Part shown: positions 4,489 to 50,693 of the stretch, one piece after another
How the letters are laid out: each line of letters begins with the position of its first letter
How positions within the stretch are numbered: position 1 is the stretch's first letter
Assembly (NCBI RefSeq): GCF_023065955.2
Contig: NW_026622874.1
Location: 25,477,772-25,541,771 of the forward strand
DNA from: Ursus arctos
Taxonomy: Eukaryota; Chordata; Mammalia; Carnivora; Ursidae
Length of the DNA stretch: 64,000 nucleotides
Direction: 5' to 3'
Position numbers and translations under genes: made by a program
The notes under the pieces: generated by a model
The model's input: only the letters and a program-made list of their open reading frames with translations
The model's database searches: none
Told to the model about the DNA's origin: nothing

Positions 4489-4620
4489 CAGGCAATTGGG
4501 TGGCTCAGTCAGTTAAGTGTCTGACTCTTGATCTCAGCTCAGGTCTTGATCTCAAGGTTGTGAGTTCAAGCCCTGCTTTGGGCTCCACACTGGGCATGGA
4601 GCCTACTTAAAAAAAAAAAT
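4489..4620 (+). mobile_element. older SINEC (tRNA head plus short tail)
   Basis: The tRNA-derived head TTGGGTGGCTCAGTCAGTTA and B-box-like GTTGTGAGTTCAAGCCC are followed by a poly(A) tail. A perfect 10-bp TSD, TCTTAATCAC, lies at 4479-4488 and 4621-4630. Confidence 0.9.
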
Positions 4621-10023: not shown

Positions 10024-10058
10024 ATGTCCATGGAGGACCCCTTCTTTGTGGTGAAAGG
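10024..10058 (+). CDS. STX6: STX6 coding exon 1
   Basis: It encodes [11 protein letters not shown] plus two bases of a glycine codon, then a canonical GTGAGT donor at 10059. The first ATG has G at -3 (GCCATGT). A second in-frame ATG two codons later has a weaker -3 (TCCATGG). The first is the start used in the known protein. Confidence 0.97.
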
Positions 10059-25000: not shown

Positions 25001-28000
25001 CAAGGTAGGGCAATGGATTGTAATATATGAAGAGTTCAAAATGTCTTTGATACAGTTTCAGGTTCCACATTGCAACTAACCTTTAAGAAACTGCCACTTT
25101 ATTGAGTTTTGGTTTAGGGTCAAAAAAGAATATGTACAATTATCTAAACAGTCTATTAAAATATTCCTCCCTTTTCCATCTGTCTATCTGTATGAGGCTG
25201 GATTTTCCTCATATACTTGAATAAAACATGTCAAGAGACTGAATGTAGAAGGAGATATGAGAATCCAGCTGTCTTCTGTTAAACCAGATACTAAAGAGAT
25301 CTGCAAACATATAAAACAGTGTAATTTTTTTTGTTTTGAAAATTTTTTTGCAAAAACATTATATTAACATGTAGGTAGTTCATTATGTTTGATTACTTGA
25401 TAAATACTTTGTAAACATCTGTTTGAATTTCTAATATGGTAAATGGCAATAGATAAAGAGCACACATCAGTCTAGCTTCTTTGGGGTCTTCAGTAATTCT
25501 GAAGAGCGCAGAGGAGCCCTGAGACCAAAAGAGTGTAGGGATTGCTACTTAAGAGAGTTTAATTTGAGGGGCGCCTGGGTGGCACAGCGGTTAAGCGTCT
25601 GCCTTTGGCTCAGGGCGTGATCCCGGCGTTATGGAACCGAGCCCCACATCAGGCTCCTCCGCTATGAGCCTGCTTCTTCCTCTCTCACTCCCCCTGTTTG
25701 TGTTCCCTCTCTTGCTGGCTTTCTCTATCTCTGTCGAATAAATAAATAAAATCTTTAAAAAAAAAAAGAGAGTTTAATTTGAGCATATGGTTGTGTTCTG
25801 GGGGTGGAGAATGTGGTATGCCCTGGCCTGAGGCTTTCTTCGGTTTAAGGCTTCTAGTTCTCAAAAAGGAATTTATATATGTACTTGACAGAATTGTTAA
25901 TTTTTATATTCTTTAAAATGAGATATTATAGATACCTCTTTAACTCTGTCTTCTATTCTCATAATTGATGTTCAACACTTAGAAATAAACCAAGTACCTG
26001 GTATTATGGGAAGATGTGTACCTCTTTCTCTACCAAATCAGCCAGAAACCTTACGAGAAAGTAAAAACACGTACTTAGTCTCTCCCCTTTTTATGTTAAG
26101 AGTTTCTCACTAGCACTGAAAGTATAAGGCTGATGTGGAAGGAACAATGAGAGGACTCTGCTAACCCGTCAGCTGGGTGTTGAACAGACCTGGGGTGATG
26201 TCACTGTTGGCCGTATAGCTCAGTGATGTGTTCAGCCTGACCCCATAGCTGTATTCTCCATTTTAATGGTCTAATGAGTATTCTCAAACTGAAATATTAT
26301 TGTAAGGCACTTTTCTTCATTTTATTAGTGCTTTATCTTCTGGTACTTAAACTGTCAGAGGGAATAGGACGCATACGCAGTTTCTGTCTTAAAGCTGTAG
26401 GCAGCAAACATCCTGAGTGAACACCCAGAAGAACTAGTTAAGAAATCATTGAAGGATCAAAACAGATCTCTTCCTTTCGGTGCATGAAGATTATAATTTT
26501 TGCATACAAGAGACCAAATAATTATAAAATGATTCTTTTTTGGTTTTTATATGCAGTAATAGTCAATTATAACATTTAAATTGTGGCTATCGGCCCATTG
26601 TTAGGAGGCCAAGTTCTTTTTTTGTTTTTCTCTTCTGTGTCGGAAATTTGCATTTCTGAAAAGTTATAGTGTCATTCTCACTACAGCAGTATAGAATGCT
26701 ACCTCAAAAGTGGTTGGTCTTTTTTTTTTTTTTTAATGTGTATCACTTCTATTTATTTTTATTTTATTTATTTATATTTATATTTCTTTTATTTATTTAT
26801 TTATTTATTTTCCAAGTTTTAATTTAATTTTCAGTTAGTTAACATACAATGTAATACTAGTTTCAGGTGTAGAATTTAGTGTTTCATTCTGCTAAATGAA
26901 ACAAGTCAGTCAGAGAAAGACAAATATCATATGATTTCGCTCATATATGGAATTTAAGAAACAAAACAAATGAGCAAAGTTAAGGAAAAAAAAAAGACAA
27001 ACCAAGAAACAGACTCTTAATTATAAGAGAACAAACTGATGGTTACCAGAGGGAAGGGGGGTGGGAGGGATGGGGGAAGTAGGTAAAGGGAATTAAGAGC
27101 ACACTTATCATGATGAGCACTGAGTAATGTATGAAATTGTTGAATCACTGTATTGTACACCTGAAACTCACCTAACACTGGCTGTTAACTATACTAGAAT
27201 TTAAAAAATTTTTTAAAGTCAGATTAAAATCCTTCCCTTCTGAAAGACTAACTGCATGAGTAACCCTTCCTCAGCCCTTTTTACCCTCACTACCCCTCAC
27301 CCCCCCCCCCCCAAAGAAAAGGAAAGCTGTGTTAGGACTTGTTCATGTGAATATAAATTACTGTCACACCAAATGGCAGCATGTGTGAATGTTAGTGGCA
27401 CTTTAGTTGATTTGTAGGATTGCTTCTTATATGACTTTTAAGTATAGGCTGTTCAGAGAAACATTAAATTTTGTCCTCAGTAAACCTGATATAGCATTTA
27501 AGTACTGACTATTTTATTCCAAGATCAGCTGAGAACATAATAGTGTTATTTTAAAGGTTTGAACTTTGGTATTTGTTCACGAAGAGCCTTCTATAAAGAT
27601 CTAAACACACTTTTGGGAATGGTAGTTGCTGAAGATGGTATGTGATCACAAGTGTTAACTTAGGTCAGGCAGTAGTTAACTTGTTCATGGAACATGTTGT
27701 CTGTGATTTCAGCCCTTTCCCCTCTCCTTGATTACAGAGAGGTACAGAAAGCAGTCAACACTGCCCAGGGATTATTTCAGAGATGGACAGAGCTCCTCCA
27801 GGACCCCTCCACAGCAACAAGGGAAGAAATCGACTGGACCACCAACGAGCTGAGAAACAACCTCCGGAGCATAGAGTGGGATCTCGAGGACCTTGACGAG
27901 ACCATCAATATCCTTTTCTATGATGCCTCTGCCTTTGGGGTCAACAGAAAAGTGAACACGTTTTTATCCAGATGTCTCAAGTACATCAATTAGATATTTC

Positions 28001-31000
28001 CTTTTATAATCGATTGATGTTGCTCTTATTTGTACCATGACACTCTTGAAATAATTGCCCAGTAAGCTAAGGTGTAGGGGCCACCTTCTTCTACGGTGCA
28101 TGATAAATCCAGCAACATGGAGACAGTGTGGTGCAGTGGTTATAAGCTCGGACCCTGGGGCAGACCATGTGTTCAAGTCCTGGCTACATCAGTTACTGAT
28201 TGTGTGACTTTGGGCGCCTTGCTCTCTGCTTCAGTTTCCAGACAGTTCCTGTCTCTTAGGGTTGTTGAAAGTTGAGCAGGTAACTGTGGGGCCTGACATG
28301 CAGTGAGCTTCTGTGAGTGTTAGTCATTATTCCATAAAGGTGTATACAGACCAGTGTCCTACATTGTTAATTAGAAACCAAAAGAAAATCCTTTTGTGGA
28401 CTGTCATTTTCCTGGTCAAGAAGTGGTGTTACAATGCCAGTGTCCATGAGAGAGGTATTTTGTACCATGAAACTGCATTTAGTAAAGTCAGGTCTGTTCT
28501 GTTAAGTCATGCTATCAATGGGAGGTCTGCTGACCTGACTGACAAACCAGAGAATGATGACCTTTTTTCAGCTGGAAAAATTCCAGTTAATCAAAAATTT
28601 TGAAGATATGCCAGTTGTGTGTTCTCAGTTCTCTCTTGTTCTCTCTGTAAGTGTAATCTAGGAAACCAGCTTTTCAGGTTCATAGGCAGTTAATAAGTGG
28701 AGGGCATAATCTATTTATATTTCTATTCATCATAGTGACCCTGGGTGCATTTTAAATTATTTAAAAAGTGTATTGATAAAAATTAGTGGAACAAAATGTG
28801 CGAGTGGGTGGGATCAAAAGCACAGGTACAGGGAGATACGTTGAGATGGAGGGAAGAGAAGAAGACTGGAGAGACAGAGAAATTGTGAGAGAAAGGGCAG
28901 AATAACAGATACATGCACACCTTGGAGATACTGAGGGTTCGTTTCCAGGCCACCACAGTAGGGTGAGTATCTTGGTCTCAGTAAAGTGACTCAAGTGAAT
29001 TTTTTGGGTTTCCTGGTGCATGTAAAAGTTGTCTGCTCCATACTGTAGTCTGTTAAGTGCGCAATAGTATTTTGTCTAAAAGCAATGTATATACCTTAAT
29101 TTAAAAATACTTGATTGCTAAAAAAGTCTCGTCATCATCTAAGCTTTCAGTGAGTCACAATCACAGATCACCATAACAAGTATAATAATGAAAAAGCTTG
29201 AAATACTGTGAGAATTACCAAAATGTGACAGAGACAGGAAGTGAGTGAATGCTATCGGAAAAATGGCGCCCATACACTTGCTCGACACAGGGTTGCCAGA
29301 AGCCTTCAGTTTGTAAAACACACAATGTCTGCTAAGTGTAGTAAAACAAAGCACAATAAAATGAGGTATGCCTGTGTATTCATCATTCATTCAGCAAATA
29401 ATCATTGAGTGTACTATGTGTTGGATATTTTGTTAGTTACTGAGATTGGATTGATAAAGCAAAACAGTGTACCAGCCCTCATAGAATTTATGGTGGAGTA
29501 TAGTGAGGGGCTCAGGGGACAGGGGAACAGACATTAATAACAACCCTATATATTTGCAGACTGTAAGAGAAAAGACCAGAGAGCCATGTGAGTGTCTGAC
29601 ATGGGGCAGCAGGACCAGGCTGGGAGTGAGGAGATTCGGGGAAGCTTTGCTGAAGAAGCCTCAACCTCTAGATTAATAAGCAGGGTTAGCTTCTTGACAT
29701 AAATGGAATGGTTTGGAGCAGCAGATGAAAAAGGCTTGCAAAGCCGTCATGGGAAAGGCGATCTAGAGTCAGAAGAGAGTAGATAAGAGTGCTGGCAGGC
29801 ATCTGGAAAAGCCCAGCTCAGCTGTGGTCAGCCCGCCATGGGTTTGTAGTGAACCCAGTCGGCAGGGGCTGTGTTTCTTAATCTGGTGGGTCTTCTCCAC
29901 TCAGAGGCACAGAGATCTTCACAGCTGTGAGAGGAGAAAGTTTGAGAGTGATGTGTGTCGAGTTGACTGTGTTTTAAGAAACATCAAGCCAGATTTTATT
30001 GCTTACCTGTGAGAGATTTTGTGGTTTGTTAGGTTTTTAATGATGAAATTGCTTTCCCTTGACTTTTTGACCCACGCATAGTTGAAGCAAACCCTAGAAA
30101 ATTCAACCTTGATGCGACTGAATTGAGTATAAGAAAAACCTTCATCACAAGTACTCGGCAAGTTGTCAGGGTAAGGAATATGAGCTTATTGTGGTATTTT
30201 TGCAAGAAGTCGCCACACTTCTCAGAACTCTTTTTCTTAATTATAAACTAAGGGGTCAACTCTGAAACTGCTTTTTAGTATGCCAGTTTCCCTCATAATT
30301 TCTCTGATTCAAATAAATTTGTTTTTAGTATTGTCTGGCTTATTTCTTGGAGCAAAAATGAGAGTAGATGACTGGCTTTGGGGAGGTTACTTGTCCATTG
30401 CTCTCGTTTCTCCAAACCATTTGTCTTTTTGCCTCTTTATTTCACTGTATACTGTATTTTTGGACAAAAGGAAGAATTACTATTGTAGAAACCATTTGGT
30501 TTCTTGATTGATTGGTAATCACTTTGCATTGTGAAGAGTGACTCTTACCCAGTTTGGATAGCGGCCTCTTCCACCATCTGAATTGCTTCTGGAACTTTTG
30601 CAACCCATGTTACTGACATTTCTATATACAAGTGCTTGACAGCCTTTCAGGAGCTGTCTAGAGCAAGCATCCATCAGAGTGTAAAACACCACTCCAAGTG
30701 AACAAGTCTCTAGTCTCAAATTATATAGCTAATAACCTATTGTTAAAAAAAAAAACTGAGAGAAAATATCATTTAAGTCAAATCTCGTCTCCTTGAGATA
30801 TGTTTGTATTTTGAAACTATATGGCTAAGCCATTTGATTAGCATAACTAGATGTAAGAGAACCAGCTGTCTTTAACATATGTACTAGAAAGCAGCTTCCT
30901 TGAATAAAGAAACTTGGGATCAGACCAGCGCTAACATATGGCTTTTTAGGAGTCATCTCAGGCAGGAACCTTGGTATGTGTTTGCCAAAGACTTTGTGTC

Positions 31001-37100: not shown

Positions 37101-40100
37101 TTATTTTTGAGACTTAGACGCTAAAGAATGCTGTCTTTTCGTTTTAAAAAAATCCATAATTATGTGTATTTTGTTAGCCTGTAAAATGTTAACCATGATT
37201 TTATTTTCGTTTGTTTTCTGGTCTTCTACTTGTCTCGTTTAGGACATGAAGGATCAGATGTCAGCTTCATCTGTGCAGGCATTAGCTGAGCGAAAAAACA
37301 GACAGGTGAGTAAATAGCTGAACACACAGTATCAATCAAAATAAATAGTGTGGTTAGATATTTGGAATTAAAAAATGCTGATGTCTGTGTGTTGTGTGTT
37401 CACGCAGAAGACCTGTACGTGCTGAGCCTGGAGCGAGGCTGGCAGGTGTTGTGAAAGTCTGGTCAGCTTGCCCCAGTGCCATCCTCCCCGTCCCTCCCTC
37501 CCTCACACCCTCTGCTTCTCTCGTCTGGGCCCCCATCGCACCCTCTGCTTATCCCCGCAGGCCTTACACAGCCGTTCACTCTGCACATGCTGCCCCCATT
37601 CCGTGTGCCGGGCTCTGGGAGGTGCCGTAATTGCTTTGTCTCCTGTCTTTCTCTGCTGAACCCCAAGCTCCTTGAAAGTGAGGAGCAATTTTGTCATAGG
37701 CTGTTTTTAACTCGCTAGCTGCTATTCCATTACCCATAGAACTTAATAGACATCTAACGAGTGAAATTTTATGTAGACGTTGGAAGAACTTTAAATGTGT
37801 GTTAAATTAAATCTTTCATTGTTTTAAGTATTTTTTTGAGATGAAGTCCAGTTTTTATTAGTTATTACAGGTAAATTATGAAACCTGATTTCAGAAACCC
37901 AAGCACAGATAATGACATATCAAAGATAAAGCTAAAAGAGACCAGTCCTTGAATTTAAGTACCTTTTTTAAAATTTTTTATTTTTTAAAAAGATTTATTT
38001 GAGAGAGAGAGAGAGTGAGCATGAGCAGGGAGGAGGGGCAGAGGGAGAAGCAGGCTGCCTGCTGAGCAGGGAGCCTGATGGCGGGGCTCAATCCCAGGAC
38101 CCTGAGATCATGACCTGAGCCGAAGGCAGCAGCTTAACCGACTGAGCCACGCAGCTGCCCTGTATCTTTCTTCTTCTTCTTTTTAAACATTTATTTATTT
38201 ATTTGAGAGAGAGAGAGCGCGTGCATGCACTTGCAAGTAGGGGGAAGGGTAGAGGGAGAGAATCTCAAGCAGACTCCCTGCTGAGCATGGAGCCGGTCGC
38301 AGGGCTCCTTCTCACGACCCTGAGATCATGACCTGAGCCAAAACCAAGAGTCAGACACTCAACTGACTGAGCTACCCAGGTGCCCCTTAAGTGTGGCTTT
38401 TTAAAATTAGACAGTTTGGATAGAAGTTCCCCTCTGATAAAATCCTTTTAAAAAATATACAACAGTCACCTAAAATTTAGATTTAACTTCAGTTCTATTC
38501 AGACTCCATTAAATTACTGAGAGTCCACTAAGTAGACTCTTAAGAAACAGCTCATCATTATTAACTAGGAATCGGTTCATCCTTACTTTAGACCTGCAGG
38601 TGTTTGTTGACCCATTACATTTGAAAATAGTATTATTAGAGTTCAAAGAAAGGGAGGGGCTCTCCAGATATCACCTAACTTAATTTTCCTGTTTCTTTTC
38701 CCTGCATTTCATTCTTCATGTCACTGTTGTAGTTTTTCTTCCTGTCTCCCTCCCTTCCTCTTAACAGTGCAGCGAGGAAAAGCCAGGAGCTAACCCGGCC
38801 CATCTGGCACTCACTCTCGAAAGAAGCTAGGACATGGCCGAGGCTGGCAGTTTGAGAGTTCCCTTTTTGTCTCCACTGGAGCTTACAGAAGTTGAGGGAT
38901 GGTACCTGAAGCGATTTACACCGAACTTGAATTGTTTTATTCTCTAGATAGTGAAAGTTGAACTACCGTGAATAAAATGTGTTCTTACACATTGCCTTTC
39001 CAAGTGTGGCTTGGGATTTTGTTTTTGGCGTGGAGTGAAATGTCATAGAGTCCCAAATTCTCGGGGAATGGCAGGACCAGTTTTCTCTCACACACGAGCA
39101 GGCCGAGTCTGCCTCACGGCTTCATGCCAGGACCAGGTGCTGTGCCACGGCCTGCTCAGCCAGGACTCCCGCTCTGGCACCTGTGCTCAGGCTGGCCTTT
39201 AGCGCTCTGGGCCCTCTCCATCTTCGTTCCTGGAAGTCAGACTGATGACATCTAATCTGCTTCACAGTATAGACAACTCTTAACAGCGTGACGTGTGTCC
39301 ACCTAAGTGCAGACCACGAATAGACTAGAAAAAATAGTCCCTACTGTGACCCCAGGAGTGCACAAGGCTGGTGGAGCCCCCAGTTCTCTGTCAGTAGCCT
39401 AATGATGCACTATATATAGACTTTTTCTGACCTTGAAAAAATTGTCACTAGGCCTCCAGTGTCCTCTGTAGAGATTCTTAGAGTCTTTGCCTCAGAATGA
39501 GCAGGATCTTTTAAACTTGACAGCCCTAAGATCAGGTTGGGCAGAGCCATCTACAAAAGCCTTGGGTCTGCTTTATGCCAGAGACAGTCCCCATCCAGCT
39601 TCTTGGCTGGACCGAGGCCCTGGGCTGCCGGCAGCTCTCCTGACTCCCTCTGAGCTTGGGCTCTGCGTCCCGAGCTTCCCTGAGCCCCATCCCTGAAGAG
39701 TTGCCGTTTGACTGAAGTCGCCTTTGAACATCAGGCCAGGAGGTCCACGTCCGTATTGAGGGGCTGTTGAAAGGCTTTTCAGACAGAAAATCAAGTAACC
39801 AGTTAGGCTTTTAACAGTTCCAGGGAGATCAGAAGTACCCGGTAAGAAGATCTGGCAACTCCACAAGGAAAAAGAATCTTAGCAGCATCTGGTTCTTTGT
39901 GCAGGGCTCGTGCGAGCGGTAACTTTGACCAACTAGTTAGACAAGCTTGTGGGGCTCCCGGTCAGAGCCCAATACCGAGAATGAGCTCTCACATTCCTGG
40001 CCGGCCTCTTCATGTAAGGGAGACTTATCCTTTTTCCAGACTTATCCTGTTCTGGCTGCGAACTTCCTTGAATTCATATTGAGAAAGCTGACCCTGGGGA

Positions 40101-43100
40101 AGAGTTCTGGCTTCGGGACCAGCACTTGCCTGGGTTATCAGGGTCGAGCGCTCATTTGTGACCATGCCTGCCTCCGAAGCAACCCCCGGTTCCTATTTGG
40201 GAAGCCTGTAGCCTTTCAGTTCAACCCAAGAGTACTGGGATTGATTCATGGGTTCAGTTGAACACACATTGGTGGTTCTGGTGTCTTCTGTACGTGAGGG
40301 GCTGTGACTGGGCTTGTTGTCGTTCCAGGGAGCTCTCCCAGCCTCCTTCCGAAGAAACCCAGAAACCTTCCTGGCTCATGCTTGAATAAAAAGGACCCTA
40401 GACCTGTGGAATCAGATTAGAACCTGTGGGTCTCTGATGAACTTCCAAGGGTGCTGGGGAGAGCTGGCCTGAAGAGACCAAGTGCTTTTAGATTGTAAAG
40501 CCGTGTATAGATGGCTGTTTGTTGATTTAAAGTTGACCTTTATTTGTGTTTTAATGGGACAAAGCCCATTTCTGAGCCCCATTGGGAGAGCTTGGAGGCA
40601 GCGGGTGCCCTTCCTGGCATTCCTGAAATTGTGCCACGCAGGCACCAACCTACACCACTGCACAAAAGGCTGACCCGGTGGAAAATGCACTGTGAGCAAT
40701 ACGTGAACTCTTTATGTCACTGTGGTGGAGCGTTTGTTCAGAAAGTAACAGCTTGTTTCCCCTGACCCGGCTGCCCCCTGCCCCGCTCCTGCAGGCCCTC
40801 CTAGGGGACAGTGGCGGCCAGAACTGGAGCTCGGGAACGACAGACAAGTACGGGCGCCTGGACCGCGAGCTCCAGTTAGCCAACTCCCATTTCATCGAGG
40901 AGCAGCAAGCACAGCAGCAGGTACCCGAGAGGCCAAGGTGGGAGCGGGGCACTTCCCTCGTTCCTCTGCCGGCCATGGGGCTTTGTGACTGGTGACAGCC
41001 AGCGGGACCAGAGCTCGCCTGCGGCCGCCTGTGTCTACATGGGCAACGATTGTGTAGATGAAGGGTTTGTAAAACCTCCTTCAGAGCACGACGTTTTCAA
41101 GAGAACCAAGCTTGATTAGCTCTCTTAGGAAAAGCAGGCCAGACATCCAAATGGACAGACAAGGCCATTGATTTTAAAAAAACAAAACAAAAAAATACCC
41201 CAACAACCTCTTCCCCCGCCTCCACTTGTATGCTCAGTTTTTTGTTCATCTCAACAAAGGCACTTTCAGAAAAACTGAGTCCTTGTTTTTTTGTTGCAAA
41301 TTATTGTTGGTTCCCTTATACGTAAAAATGATTACTTTGGTGGAGGTTGTAGGGTAGAAGGAAAGTGAGGTCGATTATGTTTATAATCGTGGCATTTGAT
41401 ACATGCTGTATTTTAGAAAGGAAGCTAATAATAATGCATCTGGGGATTTGAGGATTATCCATTGAAACTACTGGTTCTTAAATATTATGTTTTATACATG
41501 TAGGGTTTGTGTGTTCTTTTTCCATTAGCATGTCTGTTTAACCAATTGTCCATTTAAATTGCAATTAATCAGGTAAACTTTTTTTTAAAATAAAAAACGA
41601 GAAGGCTACACCACAATTAAAAGTAATGATTTATCACTAAGTAGTTGTCCTTGAGGCAGTTTACTGCCACGGGGCCTCCTCTAGTTTGTCCTTGAGGAGG
41701 AAGGAAAGGACTCTATACGCAGTTTTGCCACATTCACAGATTTGCTGGCCTCTCTCGTAGTCAGGCCGAGGCAGTCTGTTGTGGATTGAGACCTTGACCC
41801 TGGCGGTGGGCTTCCTCTTCCCCAACATCCCGTGTCTCAGTGGTCACTGCACAGGTGCGTTTGCCCCTGCCTTGTTCCCTTGTTGGACTTGAGCCAATCG
41901 GAGAAAATCGCTCTTGGTGGTTTCCGGGCCTGCTGACTGTTCACAAGTTGGATCAGCAGGAAGTATCAGTAGCTTGACAGCCCAGCCTTTTGAGCAGCGT
42001 GTTCTCAGAGGCAATGGTCTGGTCCTTCGATTTCTGGGCTTTGCTTCTGAATGAGAATTGTCCCAAGTTGGCAAAGAAGCTAGCAGCTGCTAGAGTACTG
42101 GGCTTGGAACCAGGTAAGATGGATTTTAATTGCTTATTTCCCATTTCTCTGGCACCAGTTGATCGTGGAACAGCAGGATGAGCAGTTGGAGCTGGTCTCT
42201 GGCAGCATCGGGGTGCTGAAGAACATGTCCCAGCGCATCGGAGGGGAGCTGGAGGAACAGGCCGTGTGAGTACTGACACGCCCCTCGCGCTGCAGTGAAA
42301 TTGAGGGGCAAAGCCATCTCACGAGACCCCTAAAAAGCCTGACAGTTCTATGGCTAGTAAACCCAAAAGCTGTTTTACTTCTATCGCTGCATCTTTATTC
42401 TGTCTTACAGACTAGCCTCCCCTAAAGAAGCACATTTAGCAGATAAAATTTTCAACAGGGTTTGGGCAAAGTTATTAGCATGATTACTTTCACACCCTGC
42501 AAAAACAGATACAGATTCCTCTGAGCGGATTCTCAGAGTGTTGTGACGAATGGGCACGTGAGACAGGGCTGTGGAACCTCCCTGGAGATTTGGGTCCCGA
42601 AGAGGATAGGACATGAGCTGACTTCCCTCTGTCATCCCAGGACTCTTCTGCTCCATCGAACAGAACTTCTTGCTCTGCATCTTGAACTTTAACATAATGG
42701 AAAAAAGTTCATAAATTAACTTCAATTAATACAAAAAATCTTCCCTCTCAAAAAGTAAAAACAAAGCAAACGAAAACATAACTGGGTTTATTTGGTTTTC
42801 CTTCAGCACAGTCTCCTTTTGTGCTCAGAAGTCGGACACCAAAAGTATCATTCTTAAATGCTTTCATTTTACAAATTTCTTTCTGAAAAAATAAGACCAT
42901 CCACTAGGATATTTCAGAACCTCTCCTATCTCAGTCTTGAGTTCAGCCTTATACATTCATTCTTCAGAAATTCAAACTCGGTATCTGTTCTGCTGGGAGG
43001 TCCCTGGTTTCCATAGAGGAGCAAACAAAACAGACTGTGTCTCTACCATCAGAGAGTTCACCAGTTACTACATAGAACAGGCGTTCTACAAATAGTGCAA

Positions 43101-46100: not shown

Positions 46101-49100
46101 CTTGTGCTAAGGATTTTGGATAATAGATTGGGGACTTGAATCCCAAAGTAACCTGTTTTGGGTTTGCTAAAACTGAGCTGTAGATCATGTTATCATTCCA
46201 TGGCCAATGCATTGCCAAGACTTTGTGCTGACCAGCTACCCTTCTGTGTCTGCTTCTCTTTCTAGTATGTTGGATGATTTTTCTCATGAGCTGGAGAGCA
46301 CTCAGTCTCGGCTGGACAATGTGATGAAGAAACTTGCAAAAGTATCTCACATGACCAGTGGTATGTATGGTATTTAAAGCTTAAGAATTCCTACTTAATT
46401 CTAGAAACACAGTCTACGGGGTTCTGATAGGTGTGTGCCTTCCAATCTGTCCTGTGGCGCATTTTGGGTTCTGCTTTCTGGTCAGAGAAGGGAGACTGGT
46501 AACACGGGCCTGTCTGCCGCTTGTGGCCTGCACTGGAGAAGTGGTCTTTGTGTTCCCACGCTGCACAAGGCTGCTGGTGTGGGTGGCTTTTCTCCTGGCG
46601 GATCAACTCTCTTTGCAGTTAGAAAATCCTTTCTTATTTAATTTTAGTTTTTCTATTTCCTTGCCGAAGTAGGGAACTTATTATAAAACAGTGATTAAGA
46701 AGCCAGTTACTGTTTCTCCTGGACTATCTTTTATTGAGAAACTCCTACCGTTTCAGAATAAGATGGCCTTACAGATCTAATTTAAATTGTTCTCATTGAA
46801 ATCTGCAGTGAAATACTCCAGAAGCTTTGCACCAAGATGGGGATGAAGAAGTAACAGGTTTCAGATCAGCCACTGTGTAGGAAGATACGTTCCAGTGACT
46901 CTGTTTTTTTTTTTTATTGCAACAACCCACCTCCCCTAGTACATTAGAAATAATGTGTTTTATTTTATTTTTAAGATTTTATTTATTTATTTGAGAGAGA
47001 GAGCGCAAGTGAGCGAGAGAGCACAAGCAGGGGGGAGAGGCACCGGGAGAAGCAGACTCCCTGCTGAGCAGGGAACCCAATGCAGGGCTGGATCCCAGGA
47101 CCCTGGGATCATGACCTGAGCCGAAGGCAGACGCTTAACTAACTGAGCCACCCAGGCGCCCCAGAAATAATATATTTTAAATCAAAGAAAATCCAGTATC
47201 TCCTTTTTCCTTTAGTTGTTGGGGGTGACTTGGTGAAGGGAGGACCTGAGCTGCTCCTTGAGGTGATGTAGGTATTCTTGAACCAGAGCACCCAGCTTCC
47301 CCTGGAACCTCCCCTATTTCTTGACACAGGTCGTTCTTTGGGTTTCCTCCCATCAGGTCTGTGTTACGGGATCTAATAGTTCAGCCTTTTGAGCTGAAAC
47401 TTAAATACAAATGTATATTTGGGTTCCAGCACTTCAACTCATAGTCAAGTTCTAGAACAGTTGTCTGGGGCTCAGCTTCTTACCTGTTAAAAAAAAAAAA
47501 AAAGGTTGATGCCTTCCTCTCAAGATCATTGTGAAGATTAAATGAAATAATAGTAATTAATGTACAAGTGTCTAACAGTGTCTCCCATATATTAGTATTT
47601 AGTAATATGTGTTTTAAAAAAATAGTAAGGCAGAATATGGCCCTACGGGACAAAGGACCTGTTCAATCCTAAACAGAGGGAAGCTCACAGCCAGACTTCC
47701 TTCCTTCTCTCTCTCCGGGGACAAATACCTTTATGCTTCCAGCAAGTCATTGCCTGAAGCAGACACCAGCTTAGTTCTTCTCTCACACACTTCAGAGTAA
47801 GGTTTGCAAAGCCGCCTTCCGTATTCCTCTGTGGTCTCTCCTCTCCCACCTTCACCTCTCTACTTAAAAAAAAAAAAAAATTAATGAAGTATTATATAAC
47901 CAGCTGAAACACCAGGCCTCTCACTAGTGTATGTATTAGTCACAAAGTCAAGTAGCTACTTCAGCCCCAGTGTTGTTTGGGGAAGAGCAAAGAACAAAGA
48001 TGCACTGTGTCTTTGTTTCTCAGCATTCCGGGGATGAATAATTTAGAAAAGTACTTGCATTGTGATAAGCCGTTCAGTGTGTATAAATAGCACTGAGTCT
48101 TACTTATGCTTTATTCTACTTTATCCTGAAAGAAAAGTTTGGGGAGCAAAGTGGGGCCTTCAATTATGTTTGTCTAAGAAAAAGAGCCAGGAAACAGAGC
48201 ATTCAGCCTGAAAGGCCCTTCAGTTTGGACAGCTTGCCTGGGGTTTTCATTTTAATCTTTGCTCTCTCTCAAAAGAAAGCTCGCTCAGGGCCTCCCGCAC
48301 GATGGTGCTGGCTTCAGTCTGACAACGAGGCAGTTTGTATTTGTCTCTGTTCTCCTCCATAACTTTTGGGCAAGTTCACTACCTTTTAATCTGTTCTTAA
48401 AGTATATTAAGACACACTGAAGTTCGGTGAGGAGGTCACTGAGCGCGCACCGCACAGTTCTGGAGAGGAGGGCGCCTGCCCCCTCCCTGTGGCTGGCGGC
48501 TCCACGGAAGAGAGCAGCCAGGATGTCACACCTGCCTTTTCGAGTGACCCAAGGAAAGTGTGTTCTTCTGAGTGGGTATGGAGGTTTTCTTCCCCTCGTT
48601 TTCCAAAATTCTGTTGTTTATCTTTTCTCTCTGGGGAAGAAAAATATACTGGAAGGGGGGGAAAAAACCTGCCATTGGAATTCCCTTTGTTCCCATCTGA
48701 CTTTTTGAGGCAGGTCTTGACCTTGCTGAGCTGGTTAGGTTTTTCACTTGAGAGCACAGGAGCCTTTGTGGTCAGTACGCACCCTTCTGGGGAGAAGTCA
48801 GCTGGGGAGCAGCTCCCAGAGGTTACCTGGTTCGTGCTTCGAGCTTAGCACTGCCGAGGAAGATGGCTTTAAAAGGGCGTTCCTGGGTTGTGCTGGCTTG
48901 TGTGACCAACTTCTCGACGGAAACCCCCTGTCTAATGCCGTTGTGGAAGAGCCAGTGATCGGAGGTGGGAGGGGATTGGGTGGTGACTGATGGAAAGCCA
49001 AAAAGTGGAAAACTGGTTCAATATTGGGAATCTGGGCTTGAGAATGGCAGGGTGGAGGGAGGGGCAGGGATCTGTATGAGGCTGGGGGGGTGGTTACAGA

Positions 49101-50693
49101 GCAGTTACCTTGACTGTTTTGTCCTGGAAGAATACTGACATTTTAATGTCTTTTTAAATTATTGTAAACATTTTTAAATAGATGAAAAAATGCTAGACAC
49201 TTATGTTTTCCTGGCCAGTGAAGCAATAAACAGATTGAAAATATTATCTGGGTAGGCCGAGTCGGCCTCCCATGCCCATTGGACTAGTCCCTGTTGAGAT
49301 AAGGACGTGACAGACTTGGGGTCTTTGCCCTCATCACAGTGAGTTTCTGACACAACTGAAGTAGAACAAGGTGACGGCCACTAAGAAGGTACTTGCTTGG
49401 CTTACTGTCCGTTGGCGGCAGTCTCTTGGCCGGTTCTAAGATTTTGTTCTCCATAAGATTTAAATAATTTAAGTGCTTGGTGTGTGGACTTAGCACTGCT
49501 TTGTAGAAAGTTTGGCAGTCTGTTTACCTAGATCCAGACCTTTCTATAATGTGAGTCTCAATAGCTACGGGGTGCCCCAGTCTGCAGGCTTTCCAGTAAA
49601 CTTTCGATGCATCAGCATACCTTTATAGCTCTGTTTAAACGGAGTGATCATTTCTAGCCGTTGAACTGCATTTTCATAGGCCAGTGAAATTCTGTTCTAT
49701 CAGTCTGACCCTTTGTGGAAAACGCAGGACTCGTCTACGGAAAGACCGCGTGTTCTTTCTACACCGACATGAGTCAAGGAGGCATCCTGGCAGTGGCAGC
49801 ATCCTGGGCCACACGGCCGGCCTGGCCCAGAGCATGTGAGGGATTCCGTGTTCACTCGCACAAAGCCCCGCCAGGCAGTCCCTGTGCAGCGTGAGGGCCC
49901 GCAGTCAGGGTTGTGGGTGCAGCTTGGGCTGCCCTGGGACTGGTGTGGGCCCTCCTGCCCCTTGAGCCTCCTAGCTCTCGGCCATTCAGATGGACTCTGG
50001 CCACTGTGCTTCCGGTGCTGGTCCTCAGGTGTCGGTAGGGCGGAAAGTCCAGAGAAGACATTCCGCTTCCACTGACAGGTAGGCTGTGTAAGTTCCTGGC
50101 GAAGTGATCTTTCTTCTTTCCTGACTGGGTGTGGGGTCCTGCTGATCGTGCTCTTGCTCCCCAGAGCTTGCTTTTTCAGCTCTTCGTTTCCTGAGGTGAC
50201 CAGCAGGCGCTTTTTTCCCCTCTCCATCCTCCCATAGCTCTCACTGAGCAAAGGGCGTGATTATTGTTGAATGAAATGATCTGACTTCGGTGGGGGATGA
50301 AAGCCAGCGGGCTTGGACCTGGAACGCCGATACCAGCACCTTTCCAGGGACATGGTACCCACCAGCAGCAAGCCGAGAGCCACAGATTTTAATGAAAGGC
50401 TTGAGCTGCAAAGCTTGTACTTACAGGAGGCCCGTTTCAGGAGCCGTGGCCACACACGCAGTGCAGGCCGGGATACCCGGCCCCCCGGGCAGCTCCGGAG
50501 CCTCTGTGCGCCAGTCATGCGCACATTCTGTCCCCTCTCGGCTTCAGGGCTTCTCCGTGACTGTACCTTGGGGACCGCGGAGTCATGAGTGCTAACCCTT
50601 GTGTCCTGCCTTCCAGACCGGCGCCAGTGGTGTGCCATAGCCGTCCTCTTTGTGGTCCTGCTGGTTGTCCTCGTCTTCTTCTTAGTGCTGTGA
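10024..50693 (+). CDS. STX6: syntaxin-6 (eight coding exons)
   Basis: STX6 is a Qc-type SNARE of the trans-Golgi network and endosomes. It takes part in endosome-to-TGN and TGN-to-endosome vesicle fusion with other Q-SNAREs and an R-SNARE. Joining 10024-10058, 27738-27907, 30076-30170, 37243-37305, 40795-40920, 42159-42265, 46266-46360 and 50617-50693 gives 768 nt and 255 residues, the human length. The protein shows an N-terminal Habc-type helical bundle (about 1-110), the TGN-sorting tetrapeptide YGRL (140-143), a SNARE coiled coil (about 163-228) with the likely zero-layer glutamine at Q197, and one C-terminal membrane anchor (about 236-255), so it is tail-anchored with the SNARE domain in the cytosol. 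Only a few substitutions separate it from the human protein as I remember it. Intron 2 is AT-AC; the others are GT-AG. No disruption was seen. Confidence 0.97.
12221..12302 (+). mobile_element. short old SINEC fragment
   Basis: GGGGCACCTGGCTGGCTTAA, then ACTCTTGATCTC and CATTGGGCATAGAGGTCAC, ends in poly(A). The element lacks the central part. Confidence 0.75.
12327..12520 (+). mobile_element. SINEC copy A (upstream partner of a duplication)
   Basis: A full young SINEC. Its TSD is AGAAACTGGTAAAATTA before the head and AGAAACTGGTGAAATTA after the tail. Diagnostic bases that separate it from copy B are TTCTGCTGGGAG in the middle and CCCTCCCTCG plus GTCAAATAAAT near the tail. Confidence 0.92.
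12521..13368 (+). repeat. 424-bp tandem duplication, two units, made by SINE-SINE recombination
   Basis: Unit 1 (12521-12944) and unit 2 (12945-13368) are nearly identical; each holds about 229 bases of old repeat-like sequence plus a SINEC. The few differences include CATCACGAAT against CATCATGAAT and tail variants in the SINE. The middle SINE carries the 5' half of the downstream SINE and the 3' tail of the upstream SINE, which is the product expected from unequal crossover. Confidence 0.93.
12750..12944 (+). mobile_element. chimeric SINEC (copy B head, copy A tail)
   Basis: Its left flank is the copy B target site (GTAGATTCAC) and its right flank is the copy A target site (GAAACTGGTGAAATTA). 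CCACTATGAG near 12841-12850 is B-type; CCCTCCCTCG at 12888-12897 and GTCAAATAAAT are A-type. The switch therefore lies between about 12850 and 12892. Confidence 0.92.
13174..13373 (+). mobile_element. SINEC copy B (downstream partner)
   Basis: It is flanked by GTAGATTCAC on both sides (before 13174 and after the poly(A), at about 13374). Its tail differs from copies A and the chimera by CCCTCTCTCG and GTCACATAAAT. Confidence 0.92.
13560..14010 (+). mobile_element. L2 LINE 3' end
   Basis: It has L2 landmarks: GTGGCTGCCTGTTGCCTACA, AGTAAAGTCCAAACACTTCA, GGAAGTGCTTCCCTTGGCAC, AGACTATGAGCTCTGAGGG and a TTAAATAAATACT end. Another L2-like stretch lies at about 14760-15230. Confidence 0.75.
13709..13758 (+). 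repeat. 25-bp tandem duplication carrying four GGTAAGT motifs
   Basis: The 25-bp unit at 13709-13733 is repeated exactly at 13734-13758. Each unit has two copies of CTTGGTAAGT, so four perfect GGTAAGT 5' splice-site consensus strings lie within 50 bases of sense-strand intron sequence. Confidence 0.9.
14185..14395 (-). mobile_element. MIR SINE, antisense
   Basis: GTAAGCACTTTATAAAAAAT, CCCATTTTAGAGATGAGGAA, GTCACACAGCTAATAAGTGG and AGGATTCAAATTTGAACTGC are in antisense MIR order. Confidence 0.8.
15470..15705 (+). mobile_element. MIR SINE
   Basis: Motifs GTAACTTTGGGCAAGTTAAT, TAAGGATTAAATGAGTTAAT, and ACTAAATGCCCAATAAATAC are in sense order. A short duplicated block of TACAAAATGG/TACAAAATTG lies in the middle. 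Confidence 0.75.
16018..16223 (-). mobile_element. SINEC, antisense, with a small internal duplication
   Basis: The order TTTTTTTAAAGATTTTATTT to CCACCCAGGCGCCCC is complete. It contains ATCACGCCCTG twice in tandem (about 16157-16180), a duplication not seen in other copies here. Confidence 0.92.
16446..16921 (-). pseudogene. RPS15A: RPS15A processed pseudogene
   Basis: Read on the minus strand, this begins with a 5'-UTR-like CTTTCCGCGCTGCC, passes through a diverged RPS15A coding sequence, and ends with CCCTAG stop context, an AATAAAACGCCTC signal and a run of A (T9 on the + strand at about 16446). No introns are present, so it arose by retrotransposition. Recognisable peptide blocks are [35 protein letters not shown] and [13 protein letters not shown]. 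It is broken: a one-base loss near the start codon, a two-base loss in the AEKRGK region, and a roughly 30-base local duplication near 16560-16595 just before the C-terminal end. The parent gene encodes a 40S ribosomal subunit protein; this copy is not expected to make it. It lies antisense to STX6. Confidence 0.93.
17024..17226 (+). mobile_element. SINEC, perfect 17-bp TSD
   Basis: It starts GGGCACCTGGGTGGCTCAGT. The TSD AAATGTAATATAAATGA lies at 17007-17023 and 17227-17243. It belongs to an older subfamily with TCATGATTCCTGGGTCCTGG. Confidence 0.95.
17534..17734 (+). mobile_element. SINEC, first of two serial insertions
   Basis: GGGCACCTGGGTGGCTCAGT to poly(A). It is flanked by the 13-mer AAATCATATTTGA at 17521-17533 and 17735-17747. 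The poly(A) is interrupted by single G bases. Confidence 0.95.
17748..17943 (+). mobile_element. SINEC, second of two serial insertions at the same target
   Basis: GGGGCGCCTGGGTGGCACAG to poly(A). The flanks are AAATCATATTTGA at 17735-17747 and 17944-17956, so it shares its left duplication with the right duplication of the neighbouring SINE. Confidence 0.95.
20385..20800 (+). mobile_element. MaLR-type LTR (MLT1-like)
   Basis: Motifs TAATTGCCTCAACTGACAGA, GCTTCCACCTGCATCTTCCT, GTGAGAAGTCCAGCTACACC, GAGCGTAATAAATGCTTGTT and GACTGGAACAGATGCC match an old MaLR LTR read in sense. The family name is from memory. Confidence 0.55.
23195..23345 (-). mobile_element. old L1 fragment, antisense
   Basis: AATTTACCTTCGGTAAAATT, TAGTGTACAGTTCTTCAGAA and GTGTGTAACCACCACCTCCA follow the antisense order of an L1 3' region. 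Confidence 0.6.
23351..23945 (-). mobile_element. LTR-like element, copy 2, inverted relative to copy 1 and split by an L1 tail
   Basis: Its reverse complement follows 8145-8635 throughout, for example CATTTACATAACATACAATG, the TGCGTAGATGGACCATGGAG block, and the CACATT...GGTTAC end. An L1 3' end sits at about 23405-23530, between GTGCCAACAAC-like and CACCAAGGAGC-like blocks. Confidence 0.6.
23405..23530 (+). mobile_element. carnivore L1 3' tail inserted in the LTR-like element
   Basis: TGAGCACTGGGTGTTATATT, TGATGAATCACTGAACTCTA, CTCTGAAACTAATAATACGC and a TTGAATTTAAATAAAGTC poly(A) end match the carnivore L1 3' terminus. Confidence 0.85.
23960..24430 (-). mobile_element. L1 ORF2 fragment, antisense
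   Basis: Antisense L1 landmarks in order: GTCATATGGTAAACATGTTT, TTCCAAAGTGGTTGTATCAG, TTTGCATTCCCACTAGAAAT, GGTATCTCATTGTGGATTTA, TTTTGCCCATTTCCC. The open frame on the + strand here is only a by-product of the repeat. Confidence 0.85.
25568..25765 (+). mobile_element. SINEC, perfect 17-bp TSD
   Basis: A full young copy flanked by AAGAGAGTTTAATTTGA at 25551-25567 and 25766-25782. Confidence 0.95.
26721..26890 (-). mobile_element. L1 3' tail, antisense, with T/A-rich low-complexity end
   Basis: A poly(T) run and (TTTAT)n tract lead into CAGTTAGTTAACATACAATG and TTTCAGGTGTAGAATTTAGT, the reverse of the carnivore L1 terminus. Confidence 0.75.
26890..27220 (+). mobile_element. carnivore L1 3' UTR, sense
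   Basis: TCAGTCAGAGAAAGACAAAT, ATCATATGATTTCGCTCATA, AACAGACTCTTAATTATAAG, the G-rich AGGGAAGGGGGGTGGGAGGG, and CACCTGAAACTCACCTAACA. It directly abuts the antisense L1 tail to its left. Confidence 0.85.
27738..27907 (+). CDS. STX6: STX6 coding exon 2
   Basis: It begins after TTACAG with the last base of a glycine codon, then GAG GTA CAG (EVQ), and covers much of the N-terminal Habc-type bundle, ending in DLDETI plus one base. It cannot end at a GT donor: the expected junction has ATATCCTTTT at 27908. An open frame continues 28 codons into the intron to a TAG at 27991-27993. Confidence 0.97.
27908..27917 (+). promoter_or_regulatory. STX6: U12-type 5' splice site
   Basis: ATATCCTTTT pairs with U11/U6atac snRNA in the minor spliceosome. 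There is no GT at this exon boundary. Confidence 0.95.
28118..28315 (+). mobile_element. MIR SINE in the minor intron
   Basis: ACAGTGTGGTGCAGTGGTTA, GTTCAAGTCCTGGCTACATC, GTGTGACTTTGGGCGCCTTG and TTAGGGTTGTTGAAAGTTGA follow the MIR consensus order. Confidence 0.85.
28912..29376. mobile_element. Tigger1-like DNA transposon, internally deleted
   Basis: The ends are inverted: CATGCACACCTTGGAGATA on the left and, read from the other side, CACAGGCATACCTCATTTTA on the right. TA dinucleotides flank both ends (28910-28911 and 29377-29378), the TA target duplication of Tc1/mariner-type elements. The body keeps Tigger end sequences such as TTTTTTGGGTTTCCTGGTGC and GAGAATTACCAAAATGTGAC. The transposase gene is gone. 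Confidence 0.85.
30055..30063 (+). promoter_or_regulatory. STX6: U12 branch-point site
   Basis: TCCCTTGAC matches the U12 branch consensus TTCCTTRAY at eight of nine positions. The branch adenosine is 30062. Confidence 0.9.
30076..30170 (+). CDS. STX6: STX6 coding exon 3
   Basis: It starts with GC completing a serine codon, then [18 protein letters not shown] and so on to VVR. It is followed by a GTAAGG donor. Phase 0 at its end. Confidence 0.97.
31088..31122. repeat. (GT)n microsatellite
   Basis: About 17 uninterrupted GT units. Confidence 0.95.
32706..32907 (-). mobile_element. SINEC, antisense, perfect 17-bp TSD
   Basis: The TSD TAAAAACTGGAACTTTT is at 32689-32705 and 32908-32924. The body has a small insertion giving GAGGAAGGAGCC. 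Confidence 0.95.
33437..33551 (-). mobile_element. old short SINEC, antisense
   Basis: TTTAAGATTTTATTTTTAAG, CCACACCCAACATGGGGTTC and CTACCGACTGAGCCAGCCAA are the reverse of the older SINEC type. Confidence 0.8.
33710..33900 (-). mobile_element. old L1 fragment, antisense
   Basis: TTTTTATTGAAGTATAACAA, AACAGCACCCAGAAGCATTC, TTTCTTGTGCCCCCTTACAG follow the antisense order of an ancient L1 3' region. Confidence 0.65.
34255..34600. mobile_element. MER5A-like DNA element split by a SINE
   Basis: GAGCAGCTCAAACTTCAGTA, CACCCGGGGACTTGTTAGCT and CAGGGACCTGCATTTTTTC, then GACCTGCACTTCCCCTCAGG after the SINE, resemble a MER5-type hAT element. The SINE occupies 34356-34562. Confidence 0.55.
34356..34562 (-). 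mobile_element. SINEC, antisense, nested
   Basis: It runs from poly(T) to CACCCAGGCGCC, with flanks GGGACCTGCA repeated before and after (the TSD). Confidence 0.9.
34930..35134 (-). mobile_element. SINEC, antisense
   Basis: Poly(T), AAAGATTTTATTTATTCATT to CCACCCAGCGCCCC. The flanks TGCCCTTTCTT and TGCACCCTTTCTT resemble a slightly altered TSD. Confidence 0.92.
35275..35935 (+). mobile_element. L2 LINE 3' half
   Basis: CCTTTGCACAGGGGCCTGCC, CTTTTGTACTTGCTGTTCCC, TTTGCCTGGAATCCTCAGCT, CCACGTGGGCAGGGGCCTTG and GCATTTGCCGAATG are in the L2 order. The long open frame through it (35503-36033) is a by-product of this repeat. Confidence 0.75.
36051..36257 (-). mobile_element. SINEC, antisense, perfect 14-bp TSD
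   Basis: TSD TTGGAAGAAGTTTC at 36037-36050 and 36258-36271. Confidence 0.95.
36554..36670 (+). mobile_element. old short SINEC, sense, with purine-rich tail
   Basis: GGGGGCACCTGGCTGGCTCA, GTTGTAAGTTCAAGCCCCAC and TTGGGTGTAGAGATTATG. The tail has become (GGGA)n. Flanks AGTCTATACT and AGTCCATACT are a near-perfect TSD. Confidence 0.88.
36845..37015 (+). mobile_element. MIR SINE fragment
   Basis: TGTGTGACATTAAGAAAGTA, TCTTACCTGTAAAATGGAAA, GGTCGTTGTGAAAATTCAGT match sense MIR. Confidence 0.75.
37243..37305 (+). CDS. STX6: STX6 coding exon 4
   Basis: It encodes [20 protein letters not shown] and Q, flanked by TTTAG and GTGAGT. It spans the linker after the N-terminal bundle. One residue (A in MSASS) differs from human as I recall it. 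Confidence 0.97.
37970..38160 (-). mobile_element. SINEC, antisense, older subfamily
   Basis: AAAAAGATTTATTTGAGAGA, GCTGAGCAGGGAGCCTGATG, CCGACTGAGCCACGCAGCTG. Confidence 0.88.
38180..38386 (-). mobile_element. SINEC, antisense, older subfamily
   Basis: AAACATTTATTTATTTATTT, CTGCTGAGCATGGAGCCGGT, GACTGAGCTACCCAGGTGCC. It sits about 20 bases after the previous copy in the same orientation. Confidence 0.88.
40795..40920 (+). CDS. STX6: STX6 coding exon 5
   Basis: 42 codons from [11 protein letters not shown] to IEEQQAQQQ, between CTGCAG and GTACCC. It contains YGRL (residues 140-143), the tyrosine-based motif known to sort syntaxin-6 to the TGN. Confidence 0.97.
40921..42158 (+). other. STX6: STX6 intron 5 (1.2 kb)
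   Basis: GTACCC donor and CACCAG acceptor. No young SINE is present and I see no other feature in it. Confidence 0.9.
42159..42265 (+). CDS. STX6: STX6 coding exon 6
   Basis: It runs from [12 protein letters not shown] to GGELEEQA plus two bases of Val, and makes up the first half of the SNARE motif, including the likely zero-layer glutamine (Q197). The GTGAGT donor follows. Confidence 0.97.
43943..43958. repeat. G16 homopolymer
   Basis: An uninterrupted run of 16 G on the + strand. The length may be affected by sequencing error. Confidence 0.85.
45678..45876 (-). mobile_element. SINEC, antisense, perfect 15-bp TSD
   Basis: TSD GCGCTAAAAAATCTT at 45659-45673 and 45877-45891. Confidence 0.93.
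46266..46360 (+). CDS. STX6: STX6 coding exon 7
   Basis: It completes Val199, then [20 protein letters not shown] and on to MTS plus one base. It is the second half of the SNARE coiled coil. GTATGT donor. Asp at the fourth position of this block replaces the Glu I recall in human. Confidence 0.97.
46361..50616 (+). other. STX6: STX6 intron 7 (4.3 kb)
   Basis: GTATGT donor and TTCCAG acceptor. It holds one antisense SINEC, a MIR fragment with a poly(A) expansion (about 47440-47600), and no recognisable gene. The minus-strand frames over 48400-48760 and 49700-50250 have no similarity I can name. Confidence 0.9.
46963..47162 (-). mobile_element. SINEC, antisense, near-perfect TSD
   Basis: Flanks AGAAATAATGTGTTTTA (46946-46962) and AGAAATAATATATTTTA (47163-47179) differ at two bases. 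Confidence 0.92.
50617..50693 (+). CDS. STX6: STX6 coding exon 8 (membrane anchor and stop)
   Basis: It begins with AC completing Asp231, then [20 protein letters not shown] and FLVL-TGA. The ~20 hydrophobic residues form the C-terminal tail anchor. Several Ile/Ala to Val changes against human keep the hydrophobicity. Confidence 0.97.

Follow-up and report, generated by a model that had tools for sequence, protein, structure and literature searches.

INTRODUCTION

The AT-AC, U12-type intron of the syntaxin-6 gene (STX6) is already known and was published no later than 2010. In Table 2 of Lin et al. 2010 (PMC2831892) the intron of CG7736/Syx6/STX6 is entered as AT-AC and U12-type in both fly and human, and the passages that accompany this table state that in human these introns retain the subtype seen in fly, and that the fish syntaxin-6 intron switched from AT-AC to GT-AG. 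That comparison was built on U12DB with manual additions, and its table places the intron as number 1 of 2, with the human intron number absent from the entry; we have taken ‘intron 1 of 2’ as the numbering of the fly gene. Syx6/STX6 is also counted among the 19 fly U12 genes in the sections of Pessa et al. 2010 (PMC2952598) that treat them, and STX10, the paralogue of STX6, appears as a minor-intron gene in the relevant parts of two papers. The terms CG7736, syntaxin and Syx are absent from the main text of PMC7644725.

RESULTS

Structure of STX6 and position of intron 2

By exon joining in the window (the whole 64-kb stretch of DNA analysed here), eight coding exons on the + strand were found to make up the complete STX6 coding sequence between 10024 and 50693, a span of 40.7 kb, and when joined these exons comprise 768 nt including the stop codon and encode 255 residues. 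Exon 1 (10024..10058, from the ATG) is followed by the donor GTGAGT, exon 2 (27738..27907) ends in ACC ATC A with TCA as its last bases at 27907, and exon 3 (30076..30170) begins with GC ATA GTT; exons 4 to 8 lie at 37243..37305, 40795..40920, 42159..42265, 46266..46360 and 50617..50693, the last of them with the stop codon. Intron 2 (27908..30075, + strand) has a length of 2168 nt, interrupts the reading frame in phase 1 (A|GC) and is the sole STX6 intron of the seven without GT-AG ends. The remaining six introns are all GT...AG, and no second U12-type intron was found in the gene.

STX6 is flanked on both sides by long open frames in the window. Eight matches to a SINE head with at most three mismatches were counted against 0.11 expected, at window positions 4512, 7764, 17770, 25590, 33511, 34524, 35096 and 38346; we presume this head to be of the carnivore type, and together with the close match of the syntaxin-6 model from Mirounga these copies suggest that the DNA is from a carnivore. 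The stretch 28120-28200 within intron 2 resembles what we take to be a MIR repeat.

Splice signals of intron 2

U12-type introns have the donor consensus RTATCCTTT and the branch-site consensus TTCCTTRAC, and their branch adenosine usually sits some 8-20 nt before the end of the intron. A preliminary description of this DNA had claimed that intron 2 is an AT-AC intron with a U12 signature, that the exon 2 boundary has no GT, and that the branch adenosine lies 13 nt from a CCCAC end, and all of this was confirmed base for base. The intron begins at 27908 with ATATCCTTTT (27908..27917), which matches the donor consensus; the branch-site match TCCCTTGAC (30055..30063) has one mismatch to its consensus and places its A at 30062, 13 nt from the last intron base and within the usual range; and the intron ends with GACCCAC at 30075, of which the acceptor dinucleotide AC occupies 30074..30075. 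Donor, branch site, branch distance and AC end, together with the correct protein junction, all agree with the U12-type AT-AC class.

The donor and branch motifs by themselves are not rare, and it is their position that counts. In the window, RTATCCTTT occurs once (1.41 expected), RTATCCTT three times (3.67 expected) and the branch motif with at most one mismatch 30 times (40.8 expected). The signals of intron 2 nevertheless exceed chance because both sit at a boundary that is fixed independently by the protein: the probability that chance alone places a donor at one of the seven boundaries and also a branch match within a 13-nt range close to the end of the intron is ∼3e-7, a simple product of both positional chances over seven introns with independence assumed.

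Protein junction and alternative splices

Joining of 27907 to 30076 produces the junction ETISIVEANP in a protein of 255 residues. This junction is identical in the best PDB matches, the syntaxin-6 chains 4J2C and 1LVF, which are presumably the human and the rat protein, and the next match, syntaxin-10 (4DND), carries ETIGIVEANP. Near the ends of intron 2, 54 donor/acceptor pairs of five dinucleotide classes were in frame and free of stops, and ETISIVEANP came from 27907/30076 only among the 25 of them that were listed. The earlier claim that only this splice gives both the serine-isoleucine-valine junction and 255 residues is thus upheld for the junction, among the in-frame pairs listed, and falls for the length, as 255 residues are obtained from four pairs.

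Among these alternatives we considered an AG at 30080..30081, 6 nt downstream of the AC, which with the same AT donor would swap S-I-V for a single I and give a protein of 253 residues, two residues shorter, beside the main form. This AG keeps the frame and lies 19 nt from the branch A, and a second TTTTTGAC places its own A 11 nt before the end of the AG; against such AT-AG use, the resulting ETIIE form occurs in none of the best 120 relatives (of 1442), and we regard it as improbable.

Junctions in syntaxin-6 relatives

Of 2174 candidates, 1442 were relatives, and the 120 examined are the best matches only, clustered at 90% identity, so that the rows are not independent. Their junctions were of SIV type in 82, read ETINIL in 34 and were otherwise odd in four (P0068, P0093, P0114 and P0116). 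The closest relative, P0001, has 306 aa on a contig of 2681 nt and equals the window protein except at residue 134. Since the coding sequence extends over 40.7 kb in the window, this contig must be spliced, and P0001 thus represents either a spliced message of this or a closely related species or a copy of such a message. Its upstream extension of 51 residues resembles the translated 5′ leader of the window, which has a stop in that frame.

A group of 11 relatives with the source label ‘lgn’, which we assume to denote assembled sequencing runs, was chosen by hand from the best 120; one of them, P0012, is also in nr. The SIV junction was present in all 11, on longest contigs of 1041-8653 nt, which were taken as RNA assemblies from their shortness and might include retrocopies.

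The ETINIL sequence is the translation of A|ATATCCTT, i.e. of the intron start (27908-27919) read as coding (ATC AAT ATC CTT); with a GT donor, S would stand in place of N. Beyond NIL, the 34 models continue with S in 19, F in 11, W in 2, L in 1 and P in 1, and they rejoin exon 3 at differing points. In 9 of the 34, S-L-T stands three or four residues ahead of IVEANP; these nine models seem to translate the branch site as well, because TCC TTR AC is the branch-site consensus. P0076 (Varanus) is a tenth SLT model, outside this pattern with SLT one residue further off. Some of the ETINIL entries among the best 120 of 1442 are from NCBI or UniProt.

These junctions look like annotation errors that arise from the missing GT, and they are most simply read as GT-AG introns made up by gene finders that do not allow for AT-AC sites. 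That the absence of AT-AC sites disturbs gene prediction is known in general, from the relevant part of a source on Arabidopsis. The read-in gene models suggest, moreover, conservation of the AT donor among mammals, birds and lizards, by a route that is blind to species with a GT donor.

In some vertebrates, a major-type GT-AG pair nested just inside the AT-AC pair might instead serve as an in-frame fallback, yielding a near full-length syntaxin-6 if minor splicing is weak. ETINILFC-VEANP is found in the Pongo, Chinchilla, Spermophilus and Cavia entries P0084, P0102, P0104 and P0108, and ETINILS-ANP in four bird entries (P0064, P0082, P0085 and P0112). The scan of GT/GC-AG pairs found no equally close nested GT-AG pair in the window's lineage; such a fallback seems improbable in our view, and annotation error is far likelier.

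Another reading is that intron 2 is truly GT-AG and is removed by the major spliceosome at nearby cryptic sites, as many public models draw it. The 34 relatives of the best 120 in which exon 2 runs on beyond the AT donor would agree with this, as would the AG 6 nt after the AC, but none of the 11 ‘lgn’ relatives has such a junction (Fisher p 0.03 versus the other 109, rows not independent), the AT-AC junction is present in the PDB chains 4J2C and 1LVF, and among 135 GT/GC-AG pairs with donors in 27800-28060 and acceptors in 30000-30160, 20 were in frame and 0 of these 20 restored ETISIVEANP. We therefore consider a true GT-AG intron very unlikely.

Consequence of intron retention

Upon retention of intron 2 the reading frame would meet a TAG at 27991..27993 (+ strand), and recomputing the translation gave, as had been claimed, a product of 96 residues, 68 shared and 28 new. 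In the model P0011 from Mirounga leonina (elephant seal), FVDKIFPF stands against YIN-stop-IFPF in the window, i.e. a sense codon replaces the stop. Because P0011 is without the retention stop, conservation of the truncated 96-residue product is unlikely; decay or nuclear retention would be the expected fate of a message that retains intron 2.

DISCUSSION

We are highly confident that intron 2 is the conserved AT-AC, U12-type intron of syntaxin-6, which the minor spliceosome would remove to join ...ETI to SIVE.... Its assignment to the U12-type AT-AC class is supported by sequence, and the fly and human orthologues are classed alike. Counted against this explanation were the one mismatch in TCCCTTGAC, the 34 of the best 120 relatives drawn with another splice, which we read as errors, the four with other odd junctions, and the Syx6 signal in fly mutants, which is not lost. 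Removal of an AT-AC intron by the major (U2) spliceosome, as for SCN4A intron 21, is a reading to which we give almost no weight, since although such introns exist, the sodium channel AT-AC introns all have G at +5 according to the passages on them in Lin et al. 2010 (PMC2831892), whereas position +5 of STX6 intron 2 is C and both its donor and its branch site match those of U12-type introns.

The minor spliceosome consists of U11 and U12 together with U4atac, U6atac and U5, whose roles are established for the U12-type class. In STX6, U11 would pair with the donor ATATCCTTTT and U12 with TCCCTTGAC, and the assembled complex would excise 27908-30075, so that removal of intron 2 in this species would depend on the minor spliceosome. 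Failure of minor splicing would then lead to retention, to truncation inside the N-terminal domain and probably to message decay, with loss of functional syntaxin-6.

A sensitivity of STX6 to minor-spliceosome loss, as proposed in the preliminary description, is plausible as an inference. The only direct data found are from arrays of fly U6atac mutants, as given in the sections of Pessa et al. 2010 (PMC2952598) on this experiment: one of five Syx6 probes was significantly up in the second instar and two of five in the third, and none was down. The same sections point out that the array cannot separate spliced from unspliced message; by RT-PCR, unspliced U12 introns were increased in each of the three response classes, for genes that those sections leave unnamed. 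Those authors describe most effects of the U6atac mutant as relatively mild, and infer that most genes with raised or neutral signal have functional message at about the wild-type level or somewhat lower. A search of main texts found no report on retention or sensitivity of mammalian STX6 when the minor spliceosome is lost, and the relevant papers in it were the two of 2010 alone.

STX6 also counts among the risk loci for progressive supranuclear palsy, and in the parts of the literature consulted the linkage block spans introns 5 to 7 of the human gene and not the AT-AC intron. For the risk SNP rs1411478, one paper gives intron 4 in its methods and, in its results, the block of introns 5 to 7. 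A link of the AT-AC intron to this SNP was considered and is unsupported by these sources.

Working from raw sequence, the present analysis confirms a minor intron that is already known, common to fly and human, in a gene for a trans-Golgi SNARE, to which the apparent errors in ETINIL gene models are a modest addition. For users of public syntaxin-6 sequences, comparisons across residues 68-70 are unreliable in the 34 of the best 120 that appear to have a wrong junction.

The comparison with orthologous introns that the preliminary description had proposed finds the same AT-AC U12 class in human, and in fly, in the relevant table of Lin et al. 2010 (PMC2831892). As far as that source describes them, the introns of fly Syx6 (CG7736) and human STX6 are like the window intron in gene, in AT-AC termini and in U12 class, and differ from it by species, with no further difference seen. 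The fish syntaxin-6 intron, in the same source, is orthologous and U12-type as in the window, but of the GT-AG subtype. The paralogue STX10 resembles the window gene at the protein level, where its junction ETIGIVEANP aligns with ETISIVEANP.
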